From an uncultured Prochlorococcus sp. (GTDB lineage Bacteria > Cyanobacteriota > Cyanobacteriia > PCC-6307 > Cyanobiaceae), in the NCBI GenBank assembly GCA_902590775.1, contig CACIYC010000001.1, forward strand, positions 1 to 64,000: a stretch of DNA of 64,000 nt, given 5' to 3'. The notes below the pieces were generated by a model. That model was not told where the DNA came from. It did no database searches and saw only the letters and a list, made by a program, of their open reading frames with translations. This document shows positions 46,228 through 64,000 of the stretch, piece after piece (positions within the stretch are counted from its first letter, which is position 1; each line of letters starts with the position of its first letter). Both the position numbers and the translations under genes were made by a program.

Positions 46228-46716
46228 TTGAATATTTCTATGCTTAATAAATTAAGTTCCTTCTTCTTGACTTTGTTAGTCTTTTTCTTCTCACTTTTAC
46301 CCGTTAATGCTTCTATTGATTATGGTAAGCAAACTCTAATAGGAGAAGACTTCTCAGAATTAGATTTAAAAGGCTCAACTTTTTATTTGACTAACTTGCA
46401 AGACGCGGATCTTTCAGGAAGTGATTTAGAAGGTGCAAGTTTGTTTGGAGCTAAGTTGTTAAATACAAATTTATCAAATGCAAATCTGACAAATGCAACT
46501 TTAGATTCTGCAGTTTTCGAGGGTACTAATTTGAGAAATGCTGTTTTAGAAGATGCTTTTGCATTCAATGCAAGATTTAAGGATGTAAATATTAAAGGTA
46601 GCGACTTTACTAATGTAATAATACGTGGAGAAGATTTAAACTATCTATGTTCAATCGCAGAGGGTGTTAACCCTACAACTAAAAGAAATACTCTTGACTC
46701 ATTAGACTGTAATTGA
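46228..46716 (+). CDS. Exported pentapeptide-repeat protein
   Basis: 162 residues. It has a signal peptide (FFLTLLVFFFSLLPVNASI) with likely cleavage after Ala near residue 28, then about fifteen A(D/N)LxX repeats (DLKGSTFYLTNLQDADLSGS) forming a right-handed quadrilateral beta-helix, ending with a Cys pair (LCSIAEG, LDCN). Likely in the thylakoid lumen or periplasm. Start TTG 46228 or ATG 46240 (residue 5). Function unknown, as for most of the family. Confidence 0.88.
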   Translation: MNISMLNKLSSFFLTLLVFFFSLLPVNASIDYGKQTLIGEDFSELDLKGSTFYLTNLQDADLSGSDLEGASLFGAKLLNTNLSNANLTNATLDSAVFEGTNLRNAVLEDAFAFNARFKDVNIKGSDFTNVIIRGEDLNYLCSIAEGVNPTTKRNTLDSLDCN

Positions 46717-48300: not shown

Positions 48301-48659
48301 TTTTTATTGTTATTAACTTTTAAAATAATTTTTACCTATAAGAAGTAAAAATAATTATTTATTTAGTATTTCTTTTTATCACATCTTATATGTTTATTTA
48401 TTCTTCTTATTAACTAACTATTTATAACTTATTTAATAGTAGGATAGACTTGATATAAATATTGCAACGCCTAGAGCTTTTAAGATAGTCTAGTTATTTC
48501 ACTTACATAAGCTTCTTTATAATAGCCATGGAATTCTTTACAAAACAAGCCAATCTAAAAAATAAAAATAGATATAGATAATATTCTATATATGTGCTTA
48601 TTTAATATCAATTGAAAGTATCAATAATCTTAAATTACAATACTCACTCTCCAATAGAA
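48301..48659. other. AT-rich gap between 118-aa gene and tRNA-Ser
   Basis: 359 nt with no convincing gene; only a 17-codon frame at about 48530. The right end carries the dyad that pairs with the tRNA 3' end. It resembles eroded intergenic DNA. Confidence 0.4.
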
Positions 48660-48668
48660 CGGAGAGTG
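48645..48668 (-). repeat. Hairpin pairing the tRNA-Ser 3' end with downstream sequence
   Basis: On the minus strand CACTCTCC at the 3' end of the tRNA acceptor is followed by an 8-nt loop and GGAGAGTG, a perfect 8-bp stem. GGAGAGT repeats the first seven bases of the tRNA itself, so it competes with the true acceptor stem. It could influence 3' processing, or be a footprint of past recombination at the tRNA. Confidence 0.6.
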
Positions 48669-48746
48669 GGGGATTCGAACCCCCGAAGGAGTTGCCCCCT
48701 TGCTAGTTTTCAAGACTAGAGCCATAAACCGCTCGACCAACTCTCC
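48660..48746 (-). tRNA. trnS-UGA: tRNA-Ser (UGA)
   Basis: 87 nt on the minus strand. The acceptor GGAGAGT pairs with ACTCTCC and the discriminator is G; CCA is not encoded. The anticodon stem CTAGT/ACTAG encloses CTTGAAA, giving anticodon UGA for serine codon UCA (and wobble). The TTCGAAC T-loop is intact, with GGGGG/CCCCC stem, and the long variable arm expected for tRNA-Ser is present. Confidence 0.97.
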
Positions 48747-49218
48747 ACTTTCAATTATACATTTTAAAAAACACAAAACCTGATTGATCTCAGCAATTTT
48801 CTCTTCTTGAAAACTTTATGCAAGTTATGGTTCGCCATTTTAAAAAAAGTAAGCTATGGAAAGTTGGGCAGGATTCTAAAGTTGCAGAACTAGATTCCAA
48901 ACTATCTTTAGCAATTTCCTCTCAATGGTAATTTATAGCCTTTGATTGATTTTATGTAAGGGCTTTGAGTCTAGGATCAAAGTTGATACAGAGCTTTAAG
49001 CAGTATTTCAAGGCAAACAGCTTAAAAAAAATATGTGCTTGCAAATGTTCGATGCAAGAGACCATCTAGTATATGCTCTTAGTAGATAATGCTTAAATCA
49101 CAAAATCTCTTGGATCAAAATAACAAAAGGTTGATTTCCTAGAAATACTGGTTTTGCTGAGGATTTTTTATAAAGCCTTTAAGATATAATTTTATAGTAA
49201 TTTTTAAAATATGAAAAA
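48747..49218 (+). other. 472-nt region between tRNA-Ser and pilD, with a possible small ORF
   Basis: Mostly AT-rich. One frame, ATG 48818 to TAA 48931, encodes 37 basic residues beginning MQVMVRHFKKSKLWKVG; no clear ribosome site precedes it. The stretch upstream of pilD probably contains its promoter, but no clear -35/-10 pair was found. Nothing else seen. Confidence 0.35.
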
Positions 49219-50028
49219 TTGCTCGTGGAATTCTTTCTTATAATTATAGGATTATGCTTTGGTAGTTTTCTAAATGTCTTAATAGTAAGAATACCATTAA
49301 AAAAATCAATCTTTTTTCCTTCTAGTCATTGCCCAATTTGCAAAGATAAAATTCTTTGGTATGACAATATTCCTCTATTATCATGGATATTACTAAAGGG
49401 TAAATGTCGTAATTGTTCTGGAAGAATATCTTTTATTTACCCAACTATTGAAATTTTGTTGGCAATTCTTTTGCTTATTGATTATTTTTATAATAAAAGA
49501 CTATATGATTCTAATTATATATTTAATTTTATATCAAGCTTAACTTTTTGTTCCATATTAATAGTTGTAAGCTTTATAGATATGAAAACATTTAGAATAC
49601 CAAACTCAGCCAATATATTTGCATTTTTAGCTGGATTAACTTATTGTTTTGTTCTTTCATTAATTTTTAGTGGAACTATTAATTTTAATTATTTTCTTTT
49701 AATTAGATTAGCGGAGGCATTAATCCTATATATTATTTTTGAAATATTTAGATATTTTATTAGGATGTTAATAGGGAAAAATGCATTTGGAGGTGGAGAT
49801 TCAAAATTAATATCTGCTTTGACAATTTGGCTTGGCCTAAAAAGCTCTGCTATTACATTGTTAATTTCCTTTTATCTCGCTGGCATCTTTATTTTTGTAG
49901 CTTACTTATTTAAAAATGCTAGTAGAGGAGATAAGATAGCTTTTGGTCCTTTCCTTTCTTCCTCAGCTTATTTGCTATGGGTTTTTGGAGCTGACAAAAT
50001 TATCCCAGTTATATTTCCTTATAGTTAG
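49219..50028 (+). CDS. pilD: PilD, prepilin peptidase (A24)
   Basis: Cleaves and N-methylates the prepilins encoded downstream. 269 aa, about eight membrane helices. The cytoplasmic zinc motif CPIC...CRNC is at C38/C41 and C63/C66. The two catalytic aspartates are D121 (FIDMKTFRIPN) and D194 (GGGDSKL), as in type IV prepilin peptidases. The start is TTG 49219, or GTG 49225 two codons on. First gene of the pilus locus, on the same strand as the pilin genes. Confidence 0.95.
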   Translation: MLVEFFLIIIGLCFGSFLNVLIVRIPLKKSIFFPSSHCPICKDKILWYDNIPLLSWILLKGKCRNCSGRISFIYPTIEILLAILLLIDYFYNKRLYDSNYIFNFISSLTFCSILIVVSFIDMKTFRIPNSANIFAFLAGLTYCFVLSLIFSGTINFNYFLLIRLAEALILYIIFEIFRYFIRMLIGKNAFGGGDSKLISALTIWLGLKSSAITLLISFYLAGIFIFVAYLFKNASRGDKIAFGPFLSSSAYLLWVFGADKIIPVIFPYS

Positions 50029-50065
50029 TTTATATGTATACTATATATATAGTCTTTAAGTGATT

Positions 50066-50521
50066 ATGAATTTAATTTTTTTTAAGGCGTTTTTATTCGT
50101 TGGATTTTTAGTCTCTAACCTTCCATCTTTTTCAGAGGAAATTAGTAATAAATATGAAGAATGCAATCAAGATACAGCATATAATGTCAACCCAATAAAA
50201 AAGCTTAATTGCTTAGATGCTAGTGATGCATTCCTTAACTCATTCTATTCTGACCATACTCCTCGTTCTTATCAATATCCTAACGATCGATTCTTTAAGC
50301 AAACATCATCAGCAAAATTATTGGGAGAATGGTTAGGATTTTATTCAACTAATAATTCACCAAAATTTGGTTTTCCAGATCAACGTATGAAGTATGATTC
50401 AAATAGTCTATCGGTTGAATTTAGTAGGCAAATATCTAAGATAACTAGAGATCCAATTTATACTGAAGATCTTTTTAATGGATTTAATTCAAGCATTTAT
50501 GAAGAGGAAACTTCTAGATGA
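50066..50521 (+). CDS. Secreted protein of unknown function in pilus locus
   Basis: 151 residues from ATG 50066 (the track's GTG at 50060 is also possible). N-terminal signal peptide NLIFFKAFLFVGFLVSNLPSFS, cleaved near residue 24, then a soluble domain with two Cys (EECNQD, LNCLDA) rich in Asn/Ser/Tyr. Not recognised. It follows pilD by 37 nt and is convergent with the pentapeptide/TPR gene, overlapping by 8 nt. Its place suggests a pilus-linked periplasmic or surface protein. Confidence 0.65.
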   Translation: MNLIFFKAFLFVGFLVSNLPSFSEEISNKYEECNQDTAYNVNPIKKLNCLDASDAFLNSFYSDHTPRSYQYPNDRFFKQTSSAKLLGEWLGFYSTNNSPKFGFPDQRMKYDSNSLSVEFSRQISKITRDPIYTEDLFNGFNSSIYEEETSR

Positions 50522-51293
50522 GTCTAAACAGAAAAAATGCTTGACTTATAGCTTTAGCAATATTTAAGTTAAACTTTCTTTTGTTTTTAGTTTCTTTGAA
50601 TATTCTCTCTTTGAAGTCTAATATTTTATCTGCATTCTCTTCTTCCCCAATATCTATATATAATTTTGCGGCAATTTCTAAATCATACATACTTCTTTTT
50701 ATATTGCCTAACTCATAATTTATTATAGCTTTTGATAAAATAGCTTTTGGTTGTTTGGGTTCTTTTTTAATTGCTATTTTAAATATCTTTATAGCTTCTA
50801 AATATTTCTTATTTATGTAATAGGTTGCACCTAAGTTATTAAGCTTATCAATACTTACAGTTTCTTTTGTTATTCCAACTGCTTCAGATATATTGCTATT
50901 ATTAAGAGCTTCGTAGTCTATTATTGCTCCAGTCAGATCAGCTCCTCTAAAATCTGTATTATTTATTTTTGCTTCTTTCATATTTGATGCTCTAAGCGAA
51001 GTATTGACTAGTATTGTTTGGTTTAAGTTACTTCCTCGTAGGATCACTTCATCAAGTATGCTGCCACTTAAGTCACTATGACTTAGATCTGATTGAGATA
51101 AGTCTACTCCTCTTAAATCTAAATTAGTCATATTTATATTACTTAAATTGCATTGAATACATTTCTTGTCTTTTAGCACTTTGTTTATAGTAATATAAGG
51201 ATCTGCTAATATTTTGTAAGCTAATGTTCCACTAAAATCTGTTAGTAGAGTTATTATTAAGAGGCTCACTTTAAGAAAAGTATTCCTGCTCAT
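50514..51293 (-). CDS. Exported pentapeptide-repeat protein with TPR-like tail
   Basis: 259 residues. Signal peptide (FLKVSLLIITLLTDFSGTLA), a short Cys motif (KCIQCNL), then about fifteen A(D/N)LxX repeats (NLDLRGVDLSQSDLSHSDL), then from about residue 150 helical repeats (NNLGATYYINKKYLEAIKIF, PKAILSKAIINYELGN) of the tetratricopeptide type. It would be periplasmic or lumenal and could scaffold other proteins. It sits opposite in strand inside the pilus locus. Confidence 0.82.
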   Translation of the reverse strand: MSRNTFLKVSLLIITLLTDFSGTLAYKILADPYITINKVLKDKKCIQCNLSNINMTNLDLRGVDLSQSDLSHSDLSGSILDEVILRGSNLNQTILVNTSLRASNMKEAKINNTDFRGADLTGAIIDYEALNNSNISEAVGITKETVSIDKLNNLGATYYINKKYLEAIKIFKIAIKKEPKQPKAILSKAIINYELGNIKRSMYDLEIAAKLYIDIGEEENADKILDFKERIFKETKNKRKFNLNIAKAISQAFFLFRLI

Positions 51294-51382
51294 ATTAATT
51301 ATTTTTTATTTATAGAGTAATAATGTATAAATATACTCAAAATTTTCTCTGTAGTACTATCAATATATTATAAATTTGTCTA

Positions 51383-51991
51383 ATGTTATTTTTTAAGTTG
51401 CAAAAAAGAAATCTTGTCCGTGCTTTTGAGAATGATACCGAGGGTTTTACTATGCCTGAATTATTGGTTGTAATAGTACTTATTGCTTTGCTTGCTTCTT
51501 TTTCAGTCCCATCCTTATCTAGATGGATTAATAATGAGAGAAAAAATACTTATATAAATGAACTTAGGGATTTTATCCCACTTTTGCTTAGGGAATCGAG
51601 GAGGTGGGGAGGCAGTTGTTCAGTAAATATTAATAGATATATACCTTCAGGGGTAGAGGCTTCAGGCTTAAAGGTTAATTGCATAGGTATAGGTAAGGCG
51701 AGTCGAAATAATATTAAAAATGGTCCGAATATATCTAAGTTTATCTTTCAAGAAGCTAGTAGTGATTTTACAGTGACTCCTAAAGGCCAAATTTATACTT
51801 CAAACAATTCTCCAATAGTTTTTATTGTAGGAATGAGAGACGGGACAGGAAGAAATCAGCCAAAATGTATCGTATTTGAATTACCGGTTGGATCATCACG
51901 AACAGGACTATATACTCAAGCATCCTCTTTTTCCAGGTCAAGAAGTGGAAGTAGCATAAACCCTAGACTTAAGACTTCAAGTTGTAAATAA
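51383..51991 (+). CDS. GspH/FimT-like minor pseudopilin
   Basis: 202 residues. The type III prepilin leader is 21 residues with cleavage at Gly21-Phe22: TEG/FTMPELLVVIVLIALLASF, and Glu5 is present. The globular part has Cys pairs (SCSVNINRY, VNCIGIG) and ends SSCK. The GspH-like length and position first in the pilin cluster suggest an initiator/minor pilin. Not recognised beyond family. PilD upstream would process it. Confidence 0.88.
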   Translation: MLFFKLQKRNLVRAFENDTEGFTMPELLVVIVLIALLASFSVPSLSRWINNERKNTYINELRDFIPLLLRESRRWGGSCSVNINRYIPSGVEASGLKVNCIGIGKASRNNIKNGPNISKFIFQEASSDFTVTPKGQIYTSNNSPIVFIVGMRDGTGRNQPKCIVFELPVGSSRTGLYTQASSFSRSRSGSSINPRLKTSSCK

Positions 51992-52128
51992 TTTATAATT
52001 AAGAATGAACCATCTCTCACTTACTGATGTTTCATTGCTGAGGCTATGAGTATTTAAAAATTCAAAATTAAGTATTTTTTTCTTTTTTTTCACTCTTTGA
52101 CCTATAATTTTAAAAAATCTTTAAGTTT

Positions 52129-52680
52129 ATGTCGCTTACAACCTTAAAAGCAAGATTAATTCAGAGACTTCTTGAAAAGGATGAAGACAAGCAGTCTGGT
52201 TTTACACTTGTTGAACTAATTGTTGTTGTTGTTATTATTGGGATTTTATCCTCTATTGCTATTCCTAGTTTCCAGAATGCTAGTGACAAAGCAAAACAAA
52301 AAGAAGCTTCAGCAATTGTTGCTTCTTGGGTTAAAGCTGCCCAAGCTTTTTATACTGAAAATAGTGATTATCCAAGGAATGTAAGAGATTTAGGAGGGTA
52401 TGTAACTATCTCAGGATGTAGAACAACTGGGAAATGGTGCAAAACAGGAACCATGACTGACTATACAAATTCAACTCGAACATGGATTTATAGTCCAAGC
52501 GGAAACTTTCAGGTTTATATGGGTCGAAGAGGTAATCGCCTTGACATAAGAGCTAGACCTACAGGAACTTATTCCTCCTCTGGCTATGGAGTGACTGGTT
52601 GCTATAATTGGCAGTCAGGTGCAACAAAAGTAATAGATCAAACCAATAAAGGACCTAGTGTTCCTACTACTAATTGTTAA
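52129..52680 (+). CDS. pilA: PilA-like major pilin
   Basis: 183 residues with a 24-residue leader: QSG/FTLVELIVVVVIIGILSSIAIP, Glu5 present, the most canonical prepilin in the set. The head has a Cys pair near residues 97 and 104 (SGCRTTGKWCK) and a terminal pair (VTGCYN ... TTNC), which would form the D-region disulfide. Likely the main shaft subunit. Its 138-nt upstream gap may hold a separate promoter, in keeping with a highly expressed pilin. Confidence 0.92.
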   Translation: MSLTTLKARLIQRLLEKDEDKQSGFTLVELIVVVVIIGILSSIAIPSFQNASDKAKQKEASAIVASWVKAAQAFYTENSDYPRNVRDLGGYVTISGCRTTGKWCKTGTMTDYTNSTRTWIYSPSGNFQVYMGRRGNRLDIRARPTGTYSSSGYGVTGCYNWQSGATKVIDQTNKGPSVPTTNC

Positions 52681-52697
52681 AATACAAAAAATAAGCT

Positions 52698-54881
52698 TTG
52701 TTTGTCGTGAAGAGTTTCTTCATTAGAAAGAGTAATAATTTATTTAATGATCAAAGCGGTTTTGCTTTAACTCAAGTCCTAATAATATCTATTGGTTTGG
52801 CTATAGGTATTACCTCTCTTATATCATCTTCTATCCTAAGATTATCAACTTCTAAAACTAAAACATTAGAAAATAATTCAAGAAATTCAGCTTATGCAGC
52901 GATTGCAAATATACGTTCATTATTTAATAATACAAAGGGCCCATTTAACTATTATTGGCTTTCTAAGGTTTGCTCTTCCAATGTAAAAAATACTAATTCA
53001 GAATGCCCTTCATTTAATTCTTTTAGTGATAGAAATAATTGGCCTGGAATGCTTTCCCTTGGTAAGTTCCCAGATTTATCTAATCTTTTTTGGGTAGATA
53101 GTTACGATAAGTGGTGTCAAAAAAAGAATAATTCAAAAAACTCTAGATGTTTTGGGAGGCAGGTTGCACCAAAATGTACATATGCTGGGAAACTTAGATC
53201 AGCTCCTATTGACTGGATGAATTTAACAAATAAAATTAATTTTATTTTAGATTCATCAGAAGAGAAAGTTGGGAGAATTATACCAAAAGCATTTCAAGAG
53301 AATAAACAAAGTTATTTAATAAATTCAATAAATTATGTTGGTAAAGAGCATGGCGGAGAAAATACTATTTTTGTAGAGGGCTTTACTAGATCTAATTCAA
53401 ATAATCAGAAAAATATTACTTCTACTAATAAAATTAGAGTCACTATGGCTGTAAATAAAATTGTTCCAGACTCAGGATTTGCTTTTATTAGTGCTGGTGA
53501 AAATGAGAATGATAGAGATAATTCTTTGTTTTTAGGAAATCTTTCTGTAAATGGAAAAGGATCAATTCTTTGGAGGAGAAATGTTTATAAGAATTCTGAT
53601 TGTACTCAGATCCTTTCGAAAGTTAATGTGCAGCGACAAAATCAACTTCCAGATAATACTAAAAGCGAGGGAGGACTTTGGGTTCAGCCATTAGAATTTC
53701 CTTCTGAGCCTGAACATAAAATTGCTAGTAAAGCAAAAACACATAAATTGGATTCAGTATTTTGCTCTCCTTCAAATTGGACTGATAGGAGTTCAAAATG
53801 TACAGATCTAGATAATTTTTCAAGAGGAGGAACAAATAATGGAAAAGTAGAAATTGACAATCTTTTTGTTCAAGGAGACGGGGCAGTTTTCTCGGTTACT
53901 ACAAATGAAAACAATAGGGTTACTTTGGTTTTTAATGGAGATGTGGAAATTAGCAATAATGGTAAATTTTGCCATAGGCATAATCGCGGAGGAGCTTGTG
54001 GAAGTGGAAAACCTGAAAATCTAACAATTATGTTTAAACAACCTAATTCTGCTAAACAAGAAATATTTTGTGAGACTAAAGGAGGAGGGATGACTTTGGC
54101 TAATGGTTTTAATTCAGGGAATCATACTTTTGTCCTTAGCAGTACAGGTAAAAAAAGTTCAGAAAAATTTAGTGGTTTTATTTATGGACCTACTACGACA
54201 TTAACAACTGCAAAAGTTGATAATGATTATTATCAACTACCTAATTCATATACTAGGCAAATTGTTATTTCCAGAGGAGCCTATGGAATTGTTACTAATC
54301 CCCATGGATCCACTTCATCTGAAAAGAGTCCAAAATCTATTAGATATAATGGAAGAAAAATTGCTTTTAGTAATCAGCGAATACCTGCTGGTTCTGTTCA
54401 TTTATTAGGCTGGAAAATTATAGCTGCTGGGAATAGACAAGGTGGATATCAGATTCCTCCTAACAATCCTATGGATACTATGATTCTTCTTTGGTATCCG
54501 CATTATAATTATTATAGGCTTTATGGGCTAAATGATAGCCATTCAAGCCATGCTGACTTGATAGTTCAGGCTCCTGGGAAGACAGCTATGATCAATATAG
54601 GTACAAACTTAAATAAAAAGAATCCTTATGGAGTTAGATGGTTAGATTATTATGGAATAAAATTAAATAAATCAAATAACACTAATCCCGTAAAGATAAA
54701 TGGAGTAGCTTGGATGAAGAATTTATGTTTAGATAAGGGACCAGTCATATGGGATTTTGATAAGAAAACTCCTAAAGAGCTTGAGAAAAGATATACACAG
54801 GAAATTAAATTTGGAGTTCCTTATTATCGTTCTAAAGTGATAACAGCATGGGATACATTAAGAGATTTTGACAGTCCTTAA
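52698..54881 (+). CDS. Very large GspK/PilX-class pilin-like protein
   Basis: 727 residues. The prepilin leader is 21 residues: DQSG/FALTQVLIISIGLAIGI. Position 5 is Gln instead of Glu, a feature of GspK/PilX subunits that sit at the pilus tip. The remaining 700 residues form a large Cys-, Gly-, Ser- and Asn-rich head; no known domain was recognised, but repeated beta-strand patterns suggest a beta-rich fold. The start is TTG 52698 (or GTG 52707). It lies 17 nt after pilA and 1 nt before the next pilin. It resembles cyanobacterial HpsA-type pseudopilins by size only. Confidence 0.75.
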   Translation: MFVVKSFFIRKSNNLFNDQSGFALTQVLIISIGLAIGITSLISSSILRLSTSKTKTLENNSRNSAYAAIANIRSLFNNTKGPFNYYWLSKVCSSNVKNTNSECPSFNSFSDRNNWPGMLSLGKFPDLSNLFWVDSYDKWCQKKNNSKNSRCFGRQVAPKCTYAGKLRSAPIDWMNLTNKINFILDSSEEKVGRIIPKAFQENKQSYLINSINYVGKEHGGENTIFVEGFTRSNSNNQKNITSTNKIRVTMAVNKIVPDSGFAFISAGENENDRDNSLFLGNLSVNGKGSILWRRNVYKNSDCTQILSKVNVQRQNQLPDNTKSEGGLWVQPLEFPSEPEHKIASKAKTHKLDSVFCSPSNWTDRSSKCTDLDNFSRGGTNNGKVEIDNLFVQGDGAVFSVTTNENNRVTLVFNGDVEISNNGKFCHRHNRGGACGSGKPENLTIMFKQPNSAKQEIFCETKGGGMTLANGFNSGNHTFVLSSTGKKSSEKFSGFIYGPTTTLTTAKVDNDYYQLPNSYTRQIVISRGAYGIVTNPHGSTSSEKSPKSIRYNGRKIAFSNQRIPAGSVHLLGWKIIAAGNRQGGYQIPPNNPMDTMILLWYPHYNYYRLYGLNDSHSSHADLIVQAPGKTAMINIGTNLNKKNPYGVRWLDYYGIKLNKSNNTNPVKINGVAWMKNLCLDKGPVIWDFDKKTPKELEKRYTQEIKFGVPYYRSKVITAWDTLRDFDSP

Positions 54882-54882
54882 A

Positions 54883-55482
54883 ATGCAAAATATGAGAAAA
54901 AGCATAGTTAAATTTGCCAATAAACATGATGATGCTTTTGGTCTTACAGAATCTATAATAAGCATTTTGTTATTATCACTTGTAGTCTCATATGCCACTG
55001 TATTTATTTCAAAAAGGTTGCAAATAATCCATAATGCAAATCTTATTAGTGCAATTAATGACGAAATTTATAGAGATACTCAAAAATTAAAATTTGAGTT
55101 GTGGAGGGAACATCTTGTAATATCTAAAAATTCTGCATTAGTATCATCTTTTTATGATGTTAATACTCCAGCAAACCGAAAGTATTGTTCGGATATAGGA
55201 AATACTTTACCTTTACTTCCTAGCTGGAATCCTACCAAGTGGACACCTAATGAAGACAATAATACTGTCTCAGGTCAATTAAGAAACTCAATTTTTAAAG
55301 GGAAGCCTATTACTATAACCAGAAAGTTAGAGACTTCTAGTCCTTTTGATTTGAATTATACTCATTTAGATAAAAGTCTTGCAAAATTAGTATATATAGT
55401 TGATTTTAAAGGAATTTCTAAGGTATGGAGTAGTATTGACTTAGTAAGTGATGCCCATAGTTGGTGCGATGCAAATGGTTAG
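54883..55482 (+). CDS. PilV/GspI-like minor pilin
   Basis: 199 residues from ATG 54883, which avoids the 14-nt overlap of the track start with the large pilin. The prepilin leader is 18 residues: KHDDA/FGLTESIISILLLSLVVSYA. The residue before cleavage is Ala, not Gly, which PilD enzymes tolerate less often. Glu5 is present. The head is Asn/Ser-rich, with Cys in RKYCSDIG and SWCDANG. By position it is the GspI-like partner of the tip complex. Confidence 0.82.
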   Translation: MQNMRKSIVKFANKHDDAFGLTESIISILLLSLVVSYATVFISKRLQIIHNANLISAINDEIYRDTQKLKFELWREHLVISKNSALVSSFYDVNTPANRKYCSDIGNTLPLLPSWNPTKWTPNEDNNTVSGQLRNSIFKGKPITITRKLETSSPFDLNYTHLDKSLAKLVYIVDFKGISKVWSSIDLVSDAHSWCDANG

Positions 55483-56851
55483 TTCCTTGAATGTTATTTT
55501 AAAAAGATATTGTAGATTAATTACTAATAATTTTTTATCTGATGAAGGTTTTACATTATCTGAACTCTTAGTTTCTTCAACTATTTCAATTATAGTCATT
55601 GCTTCGGGATATGCACTAAGTATGGTTGCTATTAATGCTAATTCTACAGACAAGGCTAGGATTGCTTTAAATAATAAAATTGATAATAGTTTAAATTATC
55701 TTCTTGATGAGATACAAAGTGGTAGAAGTCTAATTAAAGATAAAAGCAAGTTGCCTGATTCATGTAAGAATTTTGAAGGTAATCATTTTGTTTTGGGCGT
55801 TTATCTTCCGAAGCAGGCAATAAAAAGAGGCGATTATTCTAATACGGTTAATTCATGGCAATCAGTTAATTGTCCAATCATATATTCTCTGAAACAGGAG
55901 ATCCAAAAGAAAACTGGGCAGCCTATTACATATAAACTGTTAAGGAAAGGTCCTTCAATTGATAAAAAAGGTTTTTATACTAGCGCTAACCCTTCAACAA
56001 CAGTAATAACAGATTCTATTGATAAATCTCCTATGGATGATTTACTTTGCAGCCCTAAATGGGACAAAAAAATCATTAAAGGTTTAATTATTTGTTTTGA
56101 TCCAGATTTGAAATCTGCTGAAATAGCAATTTCTGCTAGAAATACAATAACGCCTGTGAGAAATGTTGTTAACAGGCAAACATCTGGTTCTTTCTCAAGG
56201 ATTTTTGAACGAGAAATAATGGGTAATATTCCAGTTGAGGGCGGAGGTTCTCAATGTAATACTGGCTGTTCATGTAATTATTATGGAACCCAAATTAGAA
56301 GTGATAGGGTTAATTTTACTATTGATACTTCTGGATCGATGGGATGGTATCGCATTAATGGAAAGTCTTTGATGGAGCATGCTAAGACTGAAACAATAAG
56401 ATTAATTGAATGCTTGAAGGATGGAACAAAGTTGTCAATAAATGGTTTTGATCACCGACAAAATTATTGCTTTAAAAGACCTATTACAATTAATAGTTAT
56501 TGGAAGAATAAAGCTATTAATTGTGTTTCTAAAATGTATGCTTATGGAGGAACAAATCCTTGGTCAGGTTTAAATAAAGATATTCAAGATCAAGATGTTG
56601 GACAAATTATTATTTTGTCAGATGGGCAAACTTATCCACCACCCTATGGGAGATGTTTTTATGATGGCAGAGTTGGTTGGCATGCAGATTGTTATGCAAG
56701 ATATAACGAACAAGTCCGAGATAATACTCCAGGAGGCAAGGTAACGTTTGATACTATATCACTTTGGAATAATTTTTGTGGCACTCAAGATTATCAATGG
56801 CTAGGCAGGTTGGCCGCAAAAAATGATGGTGAATGTAGCTTAATAAAATAA
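55469..56851 (+). CDS. PilW-like pilin fused to a von Willebrand A domain
   Basis: 460 residues from ATG 55469 (the track's GTG is 7 codons earlier). The prepilin leader is about 27 residues: SDEG/FTLSELLVSSTISIIVIAS, Glu5 present. Residues 30-260 form a PilW-like head. A Cys-rich linker (CNTGCSC) leads to a vWA domain from about 280: MIDAS residues DTSGS (D286), Thr in YGGTNPW, and Asp in ILSDGQ are all present, so metal binding is likely. Such modular pilins with vWA are known in streptococci as tip adhesins. It closes the pilin run. Confidence 0.85.
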   Translation: MQMVSSLNVILKRYCRLITNNFLSDEGFTLSELLVSSTISIIVIASGYALSMVAINANSTDKARIALNNKIDNSLNYLLDEIQSGRSLIKDKSKLPDSCKNFEGNHFVLGVYLPKQAIKRGDYSNTVNSWQSVNCPIIYSLKQEIQKKTGQPITYKLLRKGPSIDKKGFYTSANPSTTVITDSIDKSPMDDLLCSPKWDKKIIKGLIICFDPDLKSAEIAISARNTITPVRNVVNRQTSGSFSRIFEREIMGNIPVEGGGSQCNTGCSCNYYGTQIRSDRVNFTIDTSGSMGWYRINGKSLMEHAKTETIRLIECLKDGTKLSINGFDHRQNYCFKRPITINSYWKNKAINCVSKMYAYGGTNPWSGLNKDIQDQDVGQIIILSDGQTYPPPYGRCFYDGRVGWHADCYARYNEQVRDNTPGGKVTFDTISLWNNFCGTQDYQWLGRLAAKNDGECSLIK

Positions 56852-56865
56852 TTATTTTCTACTAG

Positions 56866-59142
56866 TTATTCCTCATTTCCATATATTAATTGTTTAGCAT
56901 CTTTAGTGCTTGGTTGGTACTTAGATGAAGTCTTAGTTAAAGAGCTTTGACTATCTTTAAGTATTTGCGGAGTTACTAAGATAACTAACTCTCTTTTTGT
57001 TTGTCCAGAGACTGAGTTTCTAAAGAATTGACCAATTAAAGGAATATCTCCAAAGAAGGGAAATTTTGTTATTGTTTCTTTGTCTTCTGTATTTAAAACA
57101 CCAGTAAGAATTAATGTATGGCCATCTCTAACTCTTATTGATCCAGTATCTAATCTTCTGACTGAAAGTAAATCAATATCTCCACATCCAGAAATAGTTC
57201 TTTTCTCAGATGTTGCAGAAACTGCAGGAGATAATGCGAAGGTTACAAATCCATTATCATCAACTCTAACTATTCTTGCTCCAAATGTAAGACCTGCAAG
57301 GCCATATTCAAATGAAGGAATTGAAGATTCTCCTTCAGAAGAACAGTTTACTGGAACTTGAGTACCTACTATTACAAATCCCTCATTGCCGTATGTTCTA
57401 CCAATAGATCCAGTTTTTAGAATAGAATCTAAATCACTTAGTACTACTTCCTGACCACCAGTTTTACCTGGAAATTCGTTTAAAATTAAAGTTGGACTAG
57501 CTAAAATCTTAGTGTTTGCTGATACTATTTCTGAGGTAAGAAAATCTACAAAGTTTTCATCTGGCATTAAACCAATTGGATTATTTCTAGTTCTTCTGTT
57601 ATATACATAGCCATCTGTTGTAGGAGTAGAAGTTGTATCAGTTGTAAATTGCTGTACTGTTTGAGCATCACTAAAGTCGGTACTATTGGCAGGTAGATAT
57701 TTACCAAAGGCACCTAATAGTTTTCCTTGATCATTTACTATGAAATTATTATTTTGTCTTAAGGCCCAACTATTTTTTAGTTCATTGTTATCGCTTAAAT
57801 TAACATCTAAAACTTTTATAGAAATAGCTACTTGACGTTGCCTTAAGTCTAGTTTTTTTAGGAATCCTTCGGCTACATTAACTAAATCTTTGGAACCAAT
57901 CATAGTTATAGTTTGAAGTCTGTCGTCTGTTGTAGCAATTAAGCCAACTAGTGGACCTATCTCAGACCCATAAACTTGAACGGTTGTTTTTGAACCACTT
58001 GTAGTAGTAGAAGAAGATGCACCTCCACTAACAGTTTCAGATTGAGTAGAGCCTTGAGTTATAGCTGTAGTAATAGTTGAAGTACGCGTTACTTTCGCAC
58101 CTAAATTAGCCAAATAAGAGGCAGCAGCATTTGCTGTTGTTTGATTTAATCTGTAGATTTTAGATATTCTTTCCGTGAAAGCAGTTTCTCTAACATTAGG
58201 ACCTACATAAACTATATCCTTGTCAGTTCTTGCTTGAAGTCCGCTTGCAATTAATAAAGAATTAAATGCTACTGAAAATGGTTTATTATCTATTGTAAGA
58301 GTAATTAATCTTGGGCTATCTGCATTTGATTCATCATCATCATCTGATGATGTCTGTTGATCTGGCGAACCAATACCACTAGATAAGGAAGTGCTTTGAT
58401 TAGATGTACTTAATGAATTAGATATTGTTGATTTTGAGATATAAGATGGATCACTTTTAACCCAAACATAACTATAAGTGGATTTAGAAAGTAAAAATTC
58501 GATTGCTTTTTTTGCTGGTGTTTGTTTGAAAACTAAACTTACTGTTGGTCCTTTTAAATTTAGAAGATTTGGGTTTTCTATGATTGTAGTGCCAATTGCC
58601 ATATCTCCAAGAGGAGGAGCTGTAGCTCTATTTATAGACTTTTTAAAGAATGTTTTTATTGGTGTGATTTTAAAAATATTATTTTTATTAAATGATAATT
58701 GTGATAAAGGTAATTTGAATTTTAGATTTAAACGATCATCTATATTTTCAATTCTTAATGTTGTTAGATCAATCGTTTCTGTAAATTGTACTGTAATTAA
58801 CAACTTGTCGTTAAAACTCTTCATGGAGGCATTTTCGACTCCTAATGAAGGCTTGGATATACTTTGAGGTGGCTGTTTATAAGGTTCTTCAAAATAAAGT
58901 GATAATATATTTCCTTCTAATACTTTGGAATATTTATTATTTGAAGAAATATTGCTAATTTGAAGTGATGTAAAATTATTTTTGCTTTGTAAATAGAAAT
59001 TTGGCTTAATTGAAACTAATTCCTCAGAGATAGGAGTTAGATTGGCTATATCTAGTTTATATCTATTATTTAAATTATCTGGAGAAGCTGGGCTATTCCA
59101 GAACATAAGCATAAATAAACAAAATGATGTTCTTTTATGCAT
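56866..59142 (-). CDS. pilQ: PilQ-like secretin
   Basis: 758 residues. Signal peptide (TSFCLFMLMFWNSPAS), an AMIN-like N-terminal beta region, then N-domains (ITLTIDNKPFSVAFNSLLIAS), a Ser/Thr-rich linker and the secretin domain from about 500 to 740: GGQEVVLSDLDSIL, FPFFGDIPLIGQFFRN and RELVILVTPQIL. It forms the outer-membrane pore for the pilus. No lipoprotein cysteine visible. Last gene of the five-gene minus-strand operon, 67 nt after PilO. Confidence 0.93.
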   Translation of the reverse strand: MHKRTSFCLFMLMFWNSPASPDNLNNRYKLDIANLTPISEELVSIKPNFYLQSKNNFTSLQISNISSNNKYSKVLEGNILSLYFEEPYKQPPQSISKPSLGVENASMKSFNDKLLITVQFTETIDLTTLRIENIDDRLNLKFKLPLSQLSFNKNNIFKITPIKTFFKKSINRATAPPLGDMAIGTTIIENPNLLNLKGPTVSLVFKQTPAKKAIEFLLSKSTYSYVWVKSDPSYISKSTISNSLSTSNQSTSLSSGIGSPDQQTSSDDDDESNADSPRLITLTIDNKPFSVAFNSLLIASGLQARTDKDIVYVGPNVRETAFTERISKIYRLNQTTANAAASYLANLGAKVTRTSTITTAITQGSTQSETVSGGASSSTTTSGSKTTVQVYGSEIGPLVGLIATTDDRLQTITMIGSKDLVNVAEGFLKKLDLRQRQVAISIKVLDVNLSDNNELKNSWALRQNNNFIVNDQGKLLGAFGKYLPANSTDFSDAQTVQQFTTDTTSTPTTDGYVYNRRTRNNPIGLMPDENFVDFLTSEIVSANTKILASPTLILNEFPGKTGGQEVVLSDLDSILKTGSIGRTYGNEGFVIVGTQVPVNCSSEGESSIPSFEYGLAGLTFGARIVRVDDNGFVTFALSPAVSATSEKRTISGCGDIDLLSVRRLDTGSIRVRDGHTLILTGVLNTEDKETITKFPFFGDIPLIGQFFRNSVSGQTKRELVILVTPQILKDSQSSLTKTSSKYQPSTKDAKQLIYGNEE

Positions 59143-59209
59143 TTAAAAATTTTTAATTAGAAAACTATTCATAATTTAGCAGAAATATTCAAATAGTCCA
59201 AAAGTATTT

Positions 59210-60193
59210 TTAATTGGAAATTTCATTAGTAGTAAAATTTTGGTAATTGGTATCTAGATTAAGAGTTGGAATATTGATTAGAATTCTTGCTTCTACTAAA
59301 CCAGGTGATTGTGTTGTCTGGTTTAGAGAAGAGGCTGATCCACTAGCAGGTGTTTTTGGTTCAAAACAAACTGGAAGTGCAATCATCTTATATTCTTGTA
59401 TTGTTCTTAGGAAGTTTAAAAGATTTATATAGTCTGCTTTAACAAGGATTTTAAAATAATTCATATTATATTTGTTTTCATTTATATTATCTTTAACAAG
59501 TTTTGTTGTATCGATTCTAAGTTTATTTATTAATTCATCATTATTAACTATATAGTCTAATTTCTTTTGTAACTCTATCTCTTCAAATTTACCTTCTATT
59601 GAGGTTTGGTCTAGGAAATCATCCATATTTTCGTTGAAATCATCGTTTAGGCTATCATCGAAATTATTCATATCTAAATTCATATTGTCTTCAAATTCAA
59701 ACTCTGAATCATTTGATGAAGCTGTACATGAAGATAATTCATCTTTAGTTATAGGAGCAAATTCTTGTATTTCTATTAAGCTTCTTCTGGCAGCATCTGT
59801 TAGCAATGCCGATAGATTTACTATTTCTGAATTATCTGGTATTAATGACATTATATTCTTATAATAGGGCAATAATTTAGTTTTAATTGATAAGCTCTTA
59901 TCTATTTGTTCTTTTATTATTGGTAGATGATTCGATTCTCTTGAATATCTATTTGAAAGAGATTGGAGTTTTCTCAGATTTTTAAACTGTGGTATTAATA
60001 TAGTAAAGATTAGAATTATAGAAATAGAAATCCCTGAAATAGGAGCAAGATATTTTGATTTACGTATATCTGACCAGGATATCTTCCTTAGATCATTAAT
60101 ACTGAAACTTTTAGTACTTTCAAATACCTGGCTTACATTTATTTCTTTAAGCTTCTCTATAAGTTGAAAAATACTTTTATTATTATTATCCAT
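59210..60193 (-). CDS. pilO: PilO-like inner-membrane alignment protein with acidic insert
   Basis: 327 residues, longer than typical PilO (about 210). One membrane helix (ISGISISIILIFTILIP, about 51-67), a coiled-coil (FKNLRKLQSLSNRYSRE), and a C-terminal ferredoxin-like part (YNMNYFKILVKADYINLLNF). Between them is an insert of Asp/Asn/Glu: DNMNLDMNNFDDSLNDDFNE. Assigned by order and shape; sequence match is weak. It starts 3 nt after PilN. Confidence 0.75.
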   Translation of the reverse strand: MDNNNKSIFQLIEKLKEINVSQVFESTKSFSINDLRKISWSDIRKSKYLAPISGISISIILIFTILIPQFKNLRKLQSLSNRYSRESNHLPIIKEQIDKSLSIKTKLLPYYKNIMSLIPDNSEIVNLSALLTDAARRSLIEIQEFAPITKDELSSCTASSNDSEFEFEDNMNLDMNNFDDSLNDDFNENMDDFLDQTSIEGKFEEIELQKKLDYIVNNDELINKLRIDTTKLVKDNINENKYNMNYFKILVKADYINLLNFLRTIQEYKMIALPVCFEPKTPASGSASSLNQTTQSPGLVEARILINIPTLNLDTNYQNFTTNEISN

Positions 60194-60196
60194 AAC

Positions 60197-60946
60197 TTAT
60201 AATTCAAATGATTTAATGGCTTTTAAATAAATATCAAGCTTATTTATTTTACCAAAATTGTATGTATCTTTATACATACTTAATTTTTTTTCTAAGTTAA
60301 TGTGGTTTAATTCACCCGAAATCTCTAAGAAGCTAGTATGAGGATTGTTAATATTTGATTGTTGAAATGTATTTGTTTTGCTTTGTTTAATTAGTCTCTT
60401 AACCTTTAATGAACCTTCTTTTACTAGTAATGATTTATTTAATAATGAAATAAAATCATTTAGTGAATTAATATCATTAGAACTTGCATTTATTACAAAA
60501 GCCTTTGCATCAAGTGCATAGTTTGATAGTCTCACATCAATTGGAACAGTTTGTTGAAGATAATGAGCAAATAAAACTGAAGGAGAATCTATTGATTCAA
60601 ATGGTAATAAACTCTTTAATTCATTAGAATATAACATAAGTTCATTATTTAAACTCTCTAGTTCTTGGTATTTCAAATTAAAACTATCATGATTTTCCCT
60701 TAAAGAGGATATTCTCATCCTTGGAATTAGAGTTATACTAGTAATAAGTAAGGTTATAGAAAATATAACTAAAGGAGGAATATAAAGAGATTTTTGCTTG
60801 CTTATTAAATTGAATATTAATTTATAATTTATATTAAGTAATAAATTCCTATCTGAATCAAATTGATCGTTTGAATCTTTTTTTGAAATATGTTTTTCCC
60901 ATCTTTTTAGTGTGGGGAAGTTATCAGCAAAATTAAATGTTGTCAT
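60197..60946 (-). CDS. pilN: PilN-like inner-membrane protein
   Basis: 249 residues. A short cytoplasmic N-terminus (TTFNFADNFPTLKRWEKH), one membrane helix (LVIFSITLLITSITLIP, about 59-75) and a periplasmic coiled coil with a small globular end. This is the PilN layout, where the cytoplasmic tail contacts PilM. ATG overlaps the PilM stop by 4 nt (ATGA), so translation is coupled. Confidence 0.75.
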   Translation of the reverse strand: MTTFNFADNFPTLKRWEKHISKKDSNDQFDSDRNLLLNINYKLIFNLISKQKSLYIPPLVIFSITLLITSITLIPRMRISSLRENHDSFNLKYQELESLNNELMLYSNELKSLLPFESIDSPSVLFAHYLQQTVPIDVRLSNYALDAKAFVINASSNDINSLNDFISLLNKSLLVKEGSLKVKRLIKQSKTNTFQQSNINNPHTSFLEISGELNHINLEKKLSMYKDTYNFGKINKLDIYLKAIKSFEL

Positions 60947-62262
60947 TTTACTAATTCCTCACAATGATTCGAAAAGATAGATAGCAATGAATTATATTTT
61001 TTTCCAAGTGCTGGATCCAGTTGGTCATCTAATTTGTATTTATTGAATAATGAAGATGGAACTTTATAGAAGTTTTCTGTTAATTTCTTTCCATCTAAAA
61101 CCATATTGTCAAAGCCAGTACCAAAAACATATACTTTATATTGATAATTGTAGGAATTATTTTCGACTATTTGCTTAATTGAATTTGAAAGCCTATAAAA
61201 ATACATATCAGATAATTCATTATCATCAGACGTATATAAGGAAGAGCCAAAAGGTAATCTTGTACTAAATAGTTCTCGCTTTTTAATTTGTAGAAAAATA
61301 GAAGTTGTGGATTTTTCTATATCAGCAACAATGACCATCTCTTCTTTAACTTCTTCGGAAATTGCTTGTATTACTTGAAATGCTGCTGTAGAAATTGAAG
61401 CAATAGGTAAATCTATTTCTTGAAGGACATTTTTCCATGAATTAAGGGATTCTTTTTCTGCGTACACGACCCTATAAAAGGAATTAAAATCTTTTGCTAA
61501 TGTCTTTGAGTAGGAAATAATTGTGTTTTTCGGAAGAAATGGACTTTTGGCAAGTACATCTGGAGAATTAACTGAGAAAACACCAATTTCGTTTTCCTTG
61601 AAACTTCTTGCAGTAAAGCCTGAAGAAGATAGTAAAAGAATTAATGAAGAATTTCTTAGGTTTAGTACTGAAATTACATTTTCAATTATGTTGCTAAGTT
61701 CAATTATATTTTCAACTTTAGAATCTCCTACTACTTCAGTTGGAATATCTATTTTGATTAACTTGGTGAAAATAGTTATATGATTTGAATACTTCATTGG
61801 AATTATAAACAACTCGTGCTCACCATAATATAATCCAATAAATTGCTCGTATGAATCATTTGTATTTACTTTTTTGTTAGTTCTAATTGTTTTCTTTGAG
61901 ATGATATCAAGTCTTTCTATTACTTTTATCTTTGTTGAATTTAATATATCTCGCACATTAGAAAGACTATTAACAATAGGAAGGTTTATATTTGAAAATG
62001 TTAATAATCTTCTTAGCTTTATTTTGACCTTGTTGCCTGCATTTATACCTATTCCTTTATATTTGAAAATGAAATTATTATCACTTGTACTGTTTTTAAA
62101 ATAAGGTTTTATTTTTTTAAACTTTGATTTTATTCGTACATTTATTTTTTCATAGTTATTTTTAATGCCTGATCCTATTTCTTTATAGTAAATCTTAATA
62201 TTTTTTCTTGCTTTTATTAATCTACTTAATAATGAAGCATATTTATTTTTAATAATCTTCAT
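60943..62262 (-). CDS. pilM: PilM-like actin-fold protein with basic N-terminal extension
   Basis: 439 residues, longer than classic PilM (about 350). Residues 1-130 are unusually Lys/Arg/Asn-rich (NKYASLLSRLIKARKNIKIYY). The rest shows the PilM/actin-like pattern weakly: GLYYGEHELFIIPMKYS, IVADIEKSTTSIFLQIKK for the phosphate loop, FVFGTGFDNMV-like segment (VYVFGTGFDNMVLDGKK). It overlaps PilP by 4 nt (ATGA) and PilN by 4 nt. Cytoplasmic platform that links PilN to the inner complex. Assigned mainly by synteny. Confidence 0.7.
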   Translation of the reverse strand: MKIIKNKYASLLSRLIKARKNIKIYYKEIGSGIKNNYEKINVRIKSKFKKIKPYFKNSTSDNNFIFKYKGIGINAGNKVKIKLRRLLTFSNINLPIVNSLSNVRDILNSTKIKVIERLDIISKKTIRTNKKVNTNDSYEQFIGLYYGEHELFIIPMKYSNHITIFTKLIKIDIPTEVVGDSKVENIIELSNIIENVISVLNLRNSSLILLLSSSGFTARSFKENEIGVFSVNSPDVLAKSPFLPKNTIISYSKTLAKDFNSFYRVVYAEKESLNSWKNVLQEIDLPIASISTAAFQVIQAISEEVKEEMVIVADIEKSTTSIFLQIKKRELFSTRLPFGSSLYTSDDNELSDMYFYRLSNSIKQIVENNSYNYQYKVYVFGTGFDNMVLDGKKLTENFYKVPSSLFNKYKLDDQLDPALGKKYNSLLSIFSNHCEELVK

Positions 62263-62765
62263 CTCTCTTCAAGGATAAATGTCTTTTCTAATTTTCCATT
62301 TGATAAGATGACTTTTACTGGATTAGATGTTATGTCCTTTAATATATATCCGTCTTCAATCTCCTCTCCTTTCTTATAGTAGTCACTCCCTTTGCTTGTT
62401 CTTATAAGGGCAGATCTTTCATTGCCAATAAATATTGCTGCAGATACATCTGTTTTTTGTAGGAAAGAGGAGGTTAGGCTCTCTCCTCCTGAAGTGGTAT
62501 TAGAGAATGGATTCCTCCCAAAATTTAATCTATCCGCTTCCATCCCATCACTTTTATTTGGTATATCTCTAAGTTCAAATGAAATAAGTATTTTGCTTGT
62601 TGTTGTATTGCTTGCCTTAAGCTGAGGAATAACTTCCTCATCAATTGATTTAGCAAAAGAACTATTAAGCGTTAATATAAAAATGTTTGATGCAAAAAAT
62701 GATAGTGCTATTCTTGTATAAATTGGCTTCCCTCTATGGCCTTTAATGACTTCCTTTAGTGTCAT
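62259..62765 (-). CDS. pilP: PilP/GspC-like inner-membrane protein
   Basis: 168 residues from ATG 62765, chosen over the track's TTG 62813 because GGAAAG precedes it at usable spacing. N-terminal membrane helix (IALSFFASNIFILTLNSSFA), a flexible middle, and a C-terminal beta domain with FGRNPFSN, AAIFIGNERSALIRTSKGSDYYKKGEEIEDGYIL (in part) that matches the PilP/GspC HR-domain pattern. It would contact PilO/PilN and the secretin. First gene of the minus-strand operon; 101 nt divergent from pilB. Confidence 0.75.
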   Translation of the reverse strand: MTLKEVIKGHRGKPIYTRIALSFFASNIFILTLNSSFAKSIDEEVIPQLKASNTTTSKILISFELRDIPNKSDGMEADRLNFGRNPFSNTTSGGESLTSSFLQKTDVSAAIFIGNERSALIRTSKGSDYYKKGEEIEDGYILKDITSNPVKVILSNGKLEKTFILEER

Positions 62766-62866
62766 GATTAAATTCTTACTTTCCAAAGTATCATCAGAAT
62801 AATTTTTTTGCAACTAGGCTTTCATTAAGCTTCTATCTTATCCTATTTATGTTTTGATTTTTAGAA

Positions 62867-64000
62867 ATGAATTCAAATCCAGAGACTAGTCCAAAGGAAA
62901 TATCGAATATTTCTAATTTATCGATTGACAACCTTATAGATTCAAATTTGTGTGAGTCAGCAGGTGTCATACCTTTATCAATAGATGGTAATACAATAAA
63001 GCTTGGAGCTATGAATCCTCTTTATATCGAGGTTACTGAGATTTCCGAGAAATTAAAATTAGAATATGGAGCAAATGTTTTTGTAGATCAGATTTCAATA
63101 GAGGAATGGGAAAAGTGGTTTGAGAATTCTGAGTCTCAGAATCTAGAAAGTATATCAATGGCTAGTCAACAAGAAATACATACTTCTTTGGATGTTGTTG
63201 AAAAAACTGAATCTGAAGAAAATGAATATCAAAATGTCTTAGAAAGTAGCGATTCTGATAATAATTCCAATGAACTAATGGAATCCCTTAAGGATAAAAC
63301 AAATATTCTCACTCCTACTGAACCAACAAGTGCAGATCATGAGATTAATAATTTATTTGATATGATTGATTTTGACGAAGAAGAAGACGAAGAAGAAGAA
63401 GAGATTGAAGCTATTGAGGATTCTGAATTCTCAAATTCCAAAGATCCTGTAATCAAGGCAGTGGGATCTATCCTTTTGCTCTCCCAACAAGTAGGAGCTT
63501 CAGATATTCATGCTGAACCTCTAGAAGATAGAATGAGAATTCGCTATCGGGTAGATGGAGTTCTTAAGGAATATTTTACTTTGCCTAAAAAGAAATCAAA
63601 GGCAATAATTAATAGATTAAAGGTTATGAGTAAGTTAGATATAGCAGAAAAACGCTTGCCCCAAGATGGGAGAATCAGATGTAAATTAAATACCGTAGTA
63701 TTAGATTTTCGGGTTAGTACTTTGCCAGGAAAATGGGGAGAAAAGATAGTTTTAAGGTTGCTAAGTTCTGATTCTTCAATGTTAAAACTAGATAAGTTAA
63801 TTACTACTTCGAGTGAACTTGATCTGGTTAGGGAGATGGGAGGTTCCCCTTATGGGATATTAATTGTTGTTGGTCCAACAGGAAGTGGTAAATCTACAAC
63901 TTTATATTCAATATTAAATGAAAGAAATACACCTGATGTTAATATAAGTACAGTTGAAGATCCCGTAGAATATACTCTACCCGGTATTCATCAAGTGCAG
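62867..64000 (+). CDS. pilB: PilB/GspE pilus extension ATPase, 3' end outside window
   Basis: Missing from the ORF track because the frame runs off the window. ATG 62867; 378 residues visible. The N-terminal part is poorly conserved and contains an acidic run (about residues 168-185; DEEEDEEEEEIEAIED). The catalytic domain follows: QQVGASDIHAEPLEDRMRIRYRVDG (in part), then Walker A GPTGSGKSTT (about 336-345) and EDPVEYTLPGIHQVQ at the window end. The retraction ATPase PilT and platform PilC would be expected beyond the edge. Confidence 0.95.
   Translation, partial: MNSNPETSPKEISNISNLSIDNLIDSNLCESAGVIPLSIDGNTIKLGAMNPLYIEVTEISEKLKLEYGANVFVDQISIEEWEKWFENSESQNLESISMASQQEIHTSLDVVEKTESEENEYQNVLESSDSDNNSNELMESLKDKTNILTPTEPTSADHEINNLFDMIDFDEEEDEEEEEIEAIEDSEFSNSKDPVIKAVGSILLLSQQVGASDIHAEPLEDRMRIRYRVDGVLKEYFTLPKKKSKAIINRLKVMSKLDIAEKRLPQDGRIRCKLNTVVLDFRVSTLPGKWGEKIVLRLLSSDSSMLKLDKLITTSSELDLVREMGGSPYGILIVVGPTGSGKSTTLYSILNERNTPDVNISTVEDPVEYTLPGIHQVQ

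Follow-up and report, generated by a model that had tools for sequence, protein, structure and literature searches.

The analysed stretch, hereafter the window, comprises the first 64,000 nucleotides of contig CACIYC010000001.1 (assembly GCA_902590775.1) from an uncultured Prochlorococcus sp., whose genome of 1.235 Mb in 48 contigs is 67% complete. From position 49219 to the right edge of the window (64000) it is filled by type IVa pilus genes, with intact open reading frames (ORFs) and zero Ns. A sequence-only reading of this DNA had described a complete pilus locus in which PilD, five prepilins, the secretin, PilO, PilN, PilM, PilP and PilB lie together. All of these genes were found as intact ORFs, and completeness was confirmed past the window edge, where the contig runs on through the end of pilB to pilT and then pilC, the machine (pilB, pilT, pilC) being complete within about 3 kb. 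For PilB the best profile was TIGR02538, though below its curated cut-off; the retraction ATPase PilT (TIGR01420, 459 bits) and the platform protein PilC (two T2SSF domains) were both over cut-off. Thus all the components that define membership of the type IVa pili were found, namely PilD, PilB with PilC, PilT, and PilQ with a PilM/N/O/P operon. The gene order, with pilins facing a reversed pilQ operon and pilB divergent, had been regarded as unusual; it turned out to be standard in the Prochlorococcus pilus loci examined, and PilO, PilN, PilM and PilP keep their place in most loci compared. Features absent from the earlier account are a von Willebrand factor A (vWA) domain on the fifth pilin, a pilin of 727 amino acids (aa) that lacks glutamate at position 5 (Glu5), and a chromosomal slot adjoining a tRNA-Ser gene (Table 1).

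Table 1. Pilus genes and bordering tRNA gene in the window, with the basis of each assignment.
Feature	Position	Strand	Basis and remarks
tRNA-Ser(UGA)	48659..48747	-	ARAGORN and Rfam; left border of chromosomal slot holding the pilus block
pilD, prepilin peptidase	49219..50028	+	Pfam A24_N PF06750 3e-32, Peptidase_A24 PF01478 8e-16
Small predicted secreted protein, no family	50060..50521	+	No Pfam match
Pentapeptide-repeat/TPR protein, type 1 accessory gene	50514..51293	-	Pfam 2e-18; 60% identical copy in G006
GspH/FimU-like minor prepilin (GFTMPE)	51383..51991	+	N_methyl at cut-off; TIGR02532 over cut-off; alignment
PilA, probable major pilin (GFTLVE)	52129..52680	+	N_methyl 4e-9; TIGR02532 over cut-off; GspG/PilA profiles below cut-off
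727-aa pilin-like protein (GFALTQ), PilX/GspK-like filament-tip candidate	52698..54881	+	Gln at position 5 instead of Glu
PilV/GspI-like minor prepilin (AFGLTE)	54868..55482	+	Alignment; position conserved across loci
PilW/GspJ-like modular prepilin with C-terminal vWA, 467 aa	55448..56851	+	Profile, model and fold matches
vWA domain of fifth pilin	56297..56848	+	MIDAS residues D293, S295, S297, T369, D392 (alignment)
pilQ, outer-membrane secretin	56866..59142	-	Pfam Secretin 7.7e-25, over cut-off
pilO-like	59210..60193	-	No Pfam match; position, conservation, syntenic homologues
pilN-like	60197..60946	-	Weak PF05137; syntenic homologues
pilM-like	60943..62262	-	Weak PF11104; syntenic homologues
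pilP-like	62259..62813	-	Weak T2SSC match; conserved position
pilB, extension ATPase, cut by window edge	62867..64000	+	T2SSE 1.5e-59; extends to G000:C1:64639

The fifth pilin is a PilW-like prepilin with the class III signal GFTLSE, in which Glu5 was called for 32 of 34 homologues. Its Pfam N_methyl and VWA_3/VWA_2 matches all remained below cut-off, and the C-terminal vWA fold is supported by a PDB profile search, AlphaFold2 and Foldseek. The PDB search, performed with a profile of five homologues, ranked PilB of Streptococcus sanguinis first (5.9e-6). AlphaFold2 modelled the pilin module poorly from five sequences; an alignment of 32 homologues gave a better model, with a mean predicted local distance difference test score of 79.8 (mostly above 90 in the vWA part), showing the long helix and the sheet of a pilin together with a vWA fold. 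With this model, Foldseek returned S. sanguinis PilB as top match (7ba2, 2e-10, 474 alignment columns). All five residues of the metal ion-dependent adhesion site (MIDAS) are present. The window's protein shares with S. sanguinis PilB (7b7p, 7ba2; PMC8179133) a class III prepilin module followed by a C-terminal vWA domain with MIDAS; it differs in that identity is only about 14% in the fold alignment and in that the fused pilin belongs to a diderm pilus, where it takes the PilW/GspJ position. S. sanguinis PilB is an adhesin (PMC8179133), and the sequence and structural similarity suggests that the vWA domain in the window may act as a built-in, metal-coordinating adhesin. Its presumed role resembles that of PilY1/PilC, the tip adhesin of proteobacterial type IVa pili, which has a vWA domain and is borne by the tip complex of minor pilins. 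PilY1, however, has a beta-propeller and is not itself a pilin but a protein of its own, while in the window the vWA domain belongs to a pilin.

In a class-wide sample of 291 cyanobacterial genomes, the full-length architecture was confined, among the matches listed (down to about 2.5e-7), to the picocyanobacterial family of the window; outside that family the listed matches cover just one portion, either pilin or vWA. Within the family, diverged pilin-vWA fusions also occur in genomes of marine-Synechococcus size. A scan of genome contigs gave three loci, one of them a Streptococcus pilin of the same architecture, and a plasmid search for an origin of the vWA pilin gave no match.

For the 727-aa pilin, glutamine was found at position 5 in all 24 homologues with an intact N terminus, and no solved relative was found by sequence. 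In type II secretion systems, it is GspK, a pseudopilin without Glu5, that occupies the tip. Judged from their sequences, the GspH-like, PilV-like, PilW-vWA and large Q5 pilins could plausibly make up an H-I-J-K tip set in which the J member bears the putative adhesin. The likeness to the type II secretion tip lies in the four minor pilins, one of them a large member without Glu5; PilT and the PilM/N/O-like genes nevertheless place the window's system with the type IVa pili. It has been noted in a review that it is hard to say which cyanobacterial minor pilins are conserved and which form the tip complex (PMC12288463). A conserved set of four minor pilins, one of them fused to a putative vWA adhesin, offers a concrete candidate for the cyanobacterial tip complex.

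Comparison with other genomes, many of them single-cell or metagenome assemblies, revealed two types of pilus locus. Type 1, with the order gspH-pilA-large-pilV-pilWvWA, is found in the window and in G006, G012, G195, G287, G368, G400 and AH-321-P05; in type 2 the order is pilA-large-pilV-gspH-pilWvWA. Between pilD and gspH, several type 1 loci hold genes similar in size to the small predicted secreted protein of the window. The five MIDAS residues are intact in 9/9 type 1 proteins, in 6/6 Synechococcus-like proteins as well as in two type 2 proteins that are basal. The alignment includes thirteen other type 2 proteins, of which twelve lack two or more of these residues, and the protein of G007 shows a single change, Thr to Ser; in the g53 and g13 proteins most of the site is gone. 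The residue pattern suggests that the two pilus types may differ in tip chemistry. The nine type 1 proteins include a second, stand-alone pilW-vWA gene of G287 (L075:9836-11209), which lies apart from the pilus cluster, about 12 kb from the pilW-vWA gene of its complete type 1 cluster; it looks as if the adhesin pilin was duplicated or left over from an earlier swap.

The expectation of the sequence-only reading that many Prochlorococcus lineages lack the pilus was borne out: six of the 14 genomes of the window's genus carry one, and three near-complete genomes do not, so that the pilus is not part of the lineage core. One of the genomes without a pilus, G001, is a single contig of 1,751,080 bp. 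In the window the block is bounded by tRNA-Ser(UGA) on one side and by two small genes followed by nrdJ on the other. The same tRNA-Ser borders the slot in G001, G003, G105, G205, G126, G383, G263 and G029. The slot is empty in G001, where tRNA-Ser and the nrdJ neighbour are about 450 bp apart, and much the same holds for G003; in the g17 genomes G126, G383 and G029 only 1.1-1.3 kb separate tRNA-Ser and nrdJ. In G006 an extra 12.5 kb lies between the tRNA and pilD. G004 and G007 hold other DNA in the slot and a different pilus type on another contig. Because other cargo of 4 to 12 kb fills pilus-free versions of it (L065:10698-17769, L062:12830-17195, L143:5820-18261), the tRNA-Ser/nrdJ slot appears to be a general hotspot. 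The type 2 pili of G064 and G126 are found near the same DUF3303 gene (L100:77-942, L097:4789-5100), with a tRNA-Pro in G064, and this side is possibly a second shared pilus slot. Beside pilD, several pilus islands from different clades carry a set of type I secretion genes (L098:1612-9274, L096:10012-19999, L048:2363-5362), encoding an outer membrane efflux protein, an ABC transporter with cNMP-binding and C39-like domains, and an HlyD protein. The window's block is without this set, and its distribution suggests that it travels with some pili.

The location of the block raises the question whether it is a site-specific integrative element, comparable to a tycheposon, that inserts at tRNA-Ser(UGA). 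Such an element would fit with the adjoining tRNA gene, with the different cargo or empty sites of other genomes, and with G012, where the block lies inverted beside the same tRNA. Integration at the 3' end of the tRNA is disfavoured, however, since the block is located on its 5' side and no exact match of at least 14 bases to the tested tRNA end segments flanks the block as a direct repeat; moreover, no recombinase was recognised among the scanned ORFs of the block and several pilus loci are found elsewhere. An integrative element is therefore considered unlikely, and with neither attachment repeats nor a recombinase found, recombination in the conserved flanks is the likelier route.

Phylogenetic analysis pointed to exchange of the whole machine. 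In the SecD tree, the genus g17 and the window's genus each formed one fully supported group; G400, a high-light single-cell record, falls with g17. Within g17, G195 and G400 carry a type 1 pilus adjoining nrdJ, and G105 and G205 carry a type 2 pilus flanked by that same tRNA-Ser and by nrdJ. In the tree of concatenated PilB/T/C/Q, g17 and the window's genus each require four changes, and approximately unbiased (AU) tests rejected a single pilus clade for both (p 9.8e-43 and 2.5e-69, respectively). G195 and G105 are 93% identical in SecD, 57% in PilB and 42% in PilQ. These conflicts between trees and between identities are most simply explained if the whole machine was replaced horizontally.

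An ordinary lineage-core pilus, inherited vertically with fast-diverging surface proteins, would agree with the gene order that is largely conserved in all loci and with the known variability of pilins, and its absences would represent losses or gaps in assemblies, many of the genomes being incomplete. This explanation is nonetheless judged quite unlikely: it is not the pilins alone that disagree with the species marker but also the motor and secretin proteins, the vertical clades are rejected by the AU tests (p <1e-40), and G006 and G011, which are closest sisters by SecD, differ in pilus type. In addition, G011 of the window's genus and G105 of g17 share 70% of PilB and 63% of PilQ across genera, at 57% SecD identity, against 54% of PilB for the congeners G000 and G011, which are 85% identical in SecD. 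Very doubtful, too, is an ancestor with several complete machines of which each genome kept one, by differential loss and without horizontal exchange. The extra pilW-like fragments on other contigs of G368 and the second pilW-vWA copy of G287 could be remnants of such a state, but one tight genus contains several deep pilus lineages, and two complete machines were not seen together in any genome.

DNA uptake had been among the functions suggested for this locus. ComEC forms the inner-membrane DNA channel in this process, and comEC was found in none of the 14 genomes of the window's genus and in none of the 19 pilus-bearing Prochlorococcus-type genomes tested, nine of which are at least 96% complete; the same search detected it in five of six larger picocyanobacterial genomes. 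For the six pilus-bearing genomes of the genus, which are 67-82% complete, the probability that comEC is missing by chance from all six is about 1e-4. The comEA profile gave no match and was silent also in relatives that carry comEC. A natural-competence pilus is thus extremely improbable and the uptake role is rejected on the absence of comEC, despite the complete PilB/T/C/Q machine, a weak ComP_DUS match in PilA and the requirement for minor pilins in transformation of S. elongatus (review PMC12288463). According to a 2020 review, Prochlorococcus is without pil and com genes apart from MIT 9303 and MIT 9313 (PMC7690421); the present data indicate that pil loci are widespread and that the missing gene is comEC.

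Taken together, the locus probably encodes a complete, retractable type IVa pilus with a tip complex bearing a vWA adhesin, which does not serve DNA uptake and which belongs to an accessory island exchanged between Prochlorococcus clades. Judging from gene content, PilD would process the five prepilins, and PilB, PilT and PilC would extend and retract the PilA fibre through PilM-N-O-P and the PilQ secretin. The four minor pilins would form a tip complex equivalent to GspH-I-J-K with the large pilin at its apex, and the PilW pilin would present its vWA domain as a built-in metal-coordinating adhesin. The whole block would be gained, lost and exchanged between clades, often at the tRNA-Ser(UGA)/nrdJ slot, probably through homologous recombination between flanking sequences that are conserved. 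The pilus would likely serve to create drag, to attach the cell or to evade grazers. Such functions have been shown by experiment in a marine Synechococcus, strain WH7803, whose pili prevent sinking and reduce grazing (PMC7994388), and by homology anti-grazing and flotation roles are plausible here.

Several points weigh against this interpretation. The species tree is that of SecD alone, a single protein, and the pilus of this organism is predicted from its genes. PilM, PilN, PilO and PilP, for which Pfam matches are weak or absent, were assigned more by position and conserved gene order than by profiles. The slot is not exclusive, since the pilus loci of G126, G064 and G263 lie outside it. 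An intact MIDAS is no proof of ligand binding, because S. sanguinis PilB binds tested ligands without a functional MIDAS (PMC8179133). Finally, a search for PilY1 gave no match, but its control search was silent too.

The pilus itself is already known (PMC7994388). In 2021, pili were reported in roughly one in four picocyanobacteria and in 67-80% of low-light II/III single cells (PMC7994388). The window's system resembles the PilA1-PilE pilus of Synechococcus WH7803 in belonging to the same pilus family, in being a complete machine with a patchy distribution among picocyanobacteria and in its high prevalence in low-light II/III single cells (PMC7994388). Unlike in that account, the genes in the window form a single compact cluster and comEC is missing. 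In the main text of that paper, vWA domains, gene order and horizontal exchange go unmentioned, and no description of the tRNA-Ser slot or of a vWA pilin in picocyanobacteria was found in the literature outside subscription journals. If ecotypes of this phototroph, the most abundant in the ocean, do exchange whole pili, genome plasticity would be tied to how the cells float, are grazed and are entered by phages. A further and more tentative idea is that the whole pilus might act as a swappable surface antigen, with phages or grazers as the selective pressure under which two divergent complete machines take each other's place at a single slot in different ecotypes, type 1 with a metal-dependent vWA adhesin and most of type 2 with a metal-free one.

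Besides the pilus genes, pentapeptide-repeat proteins are encoded at two places in the window, at 46228-46716 and within the pilus block; the latter is the pentapeptide/TPR fusion (Table 1), situated on the opposite strand. An ORF of Pcb antenna type could also be read from the sequence at 19813-20868.

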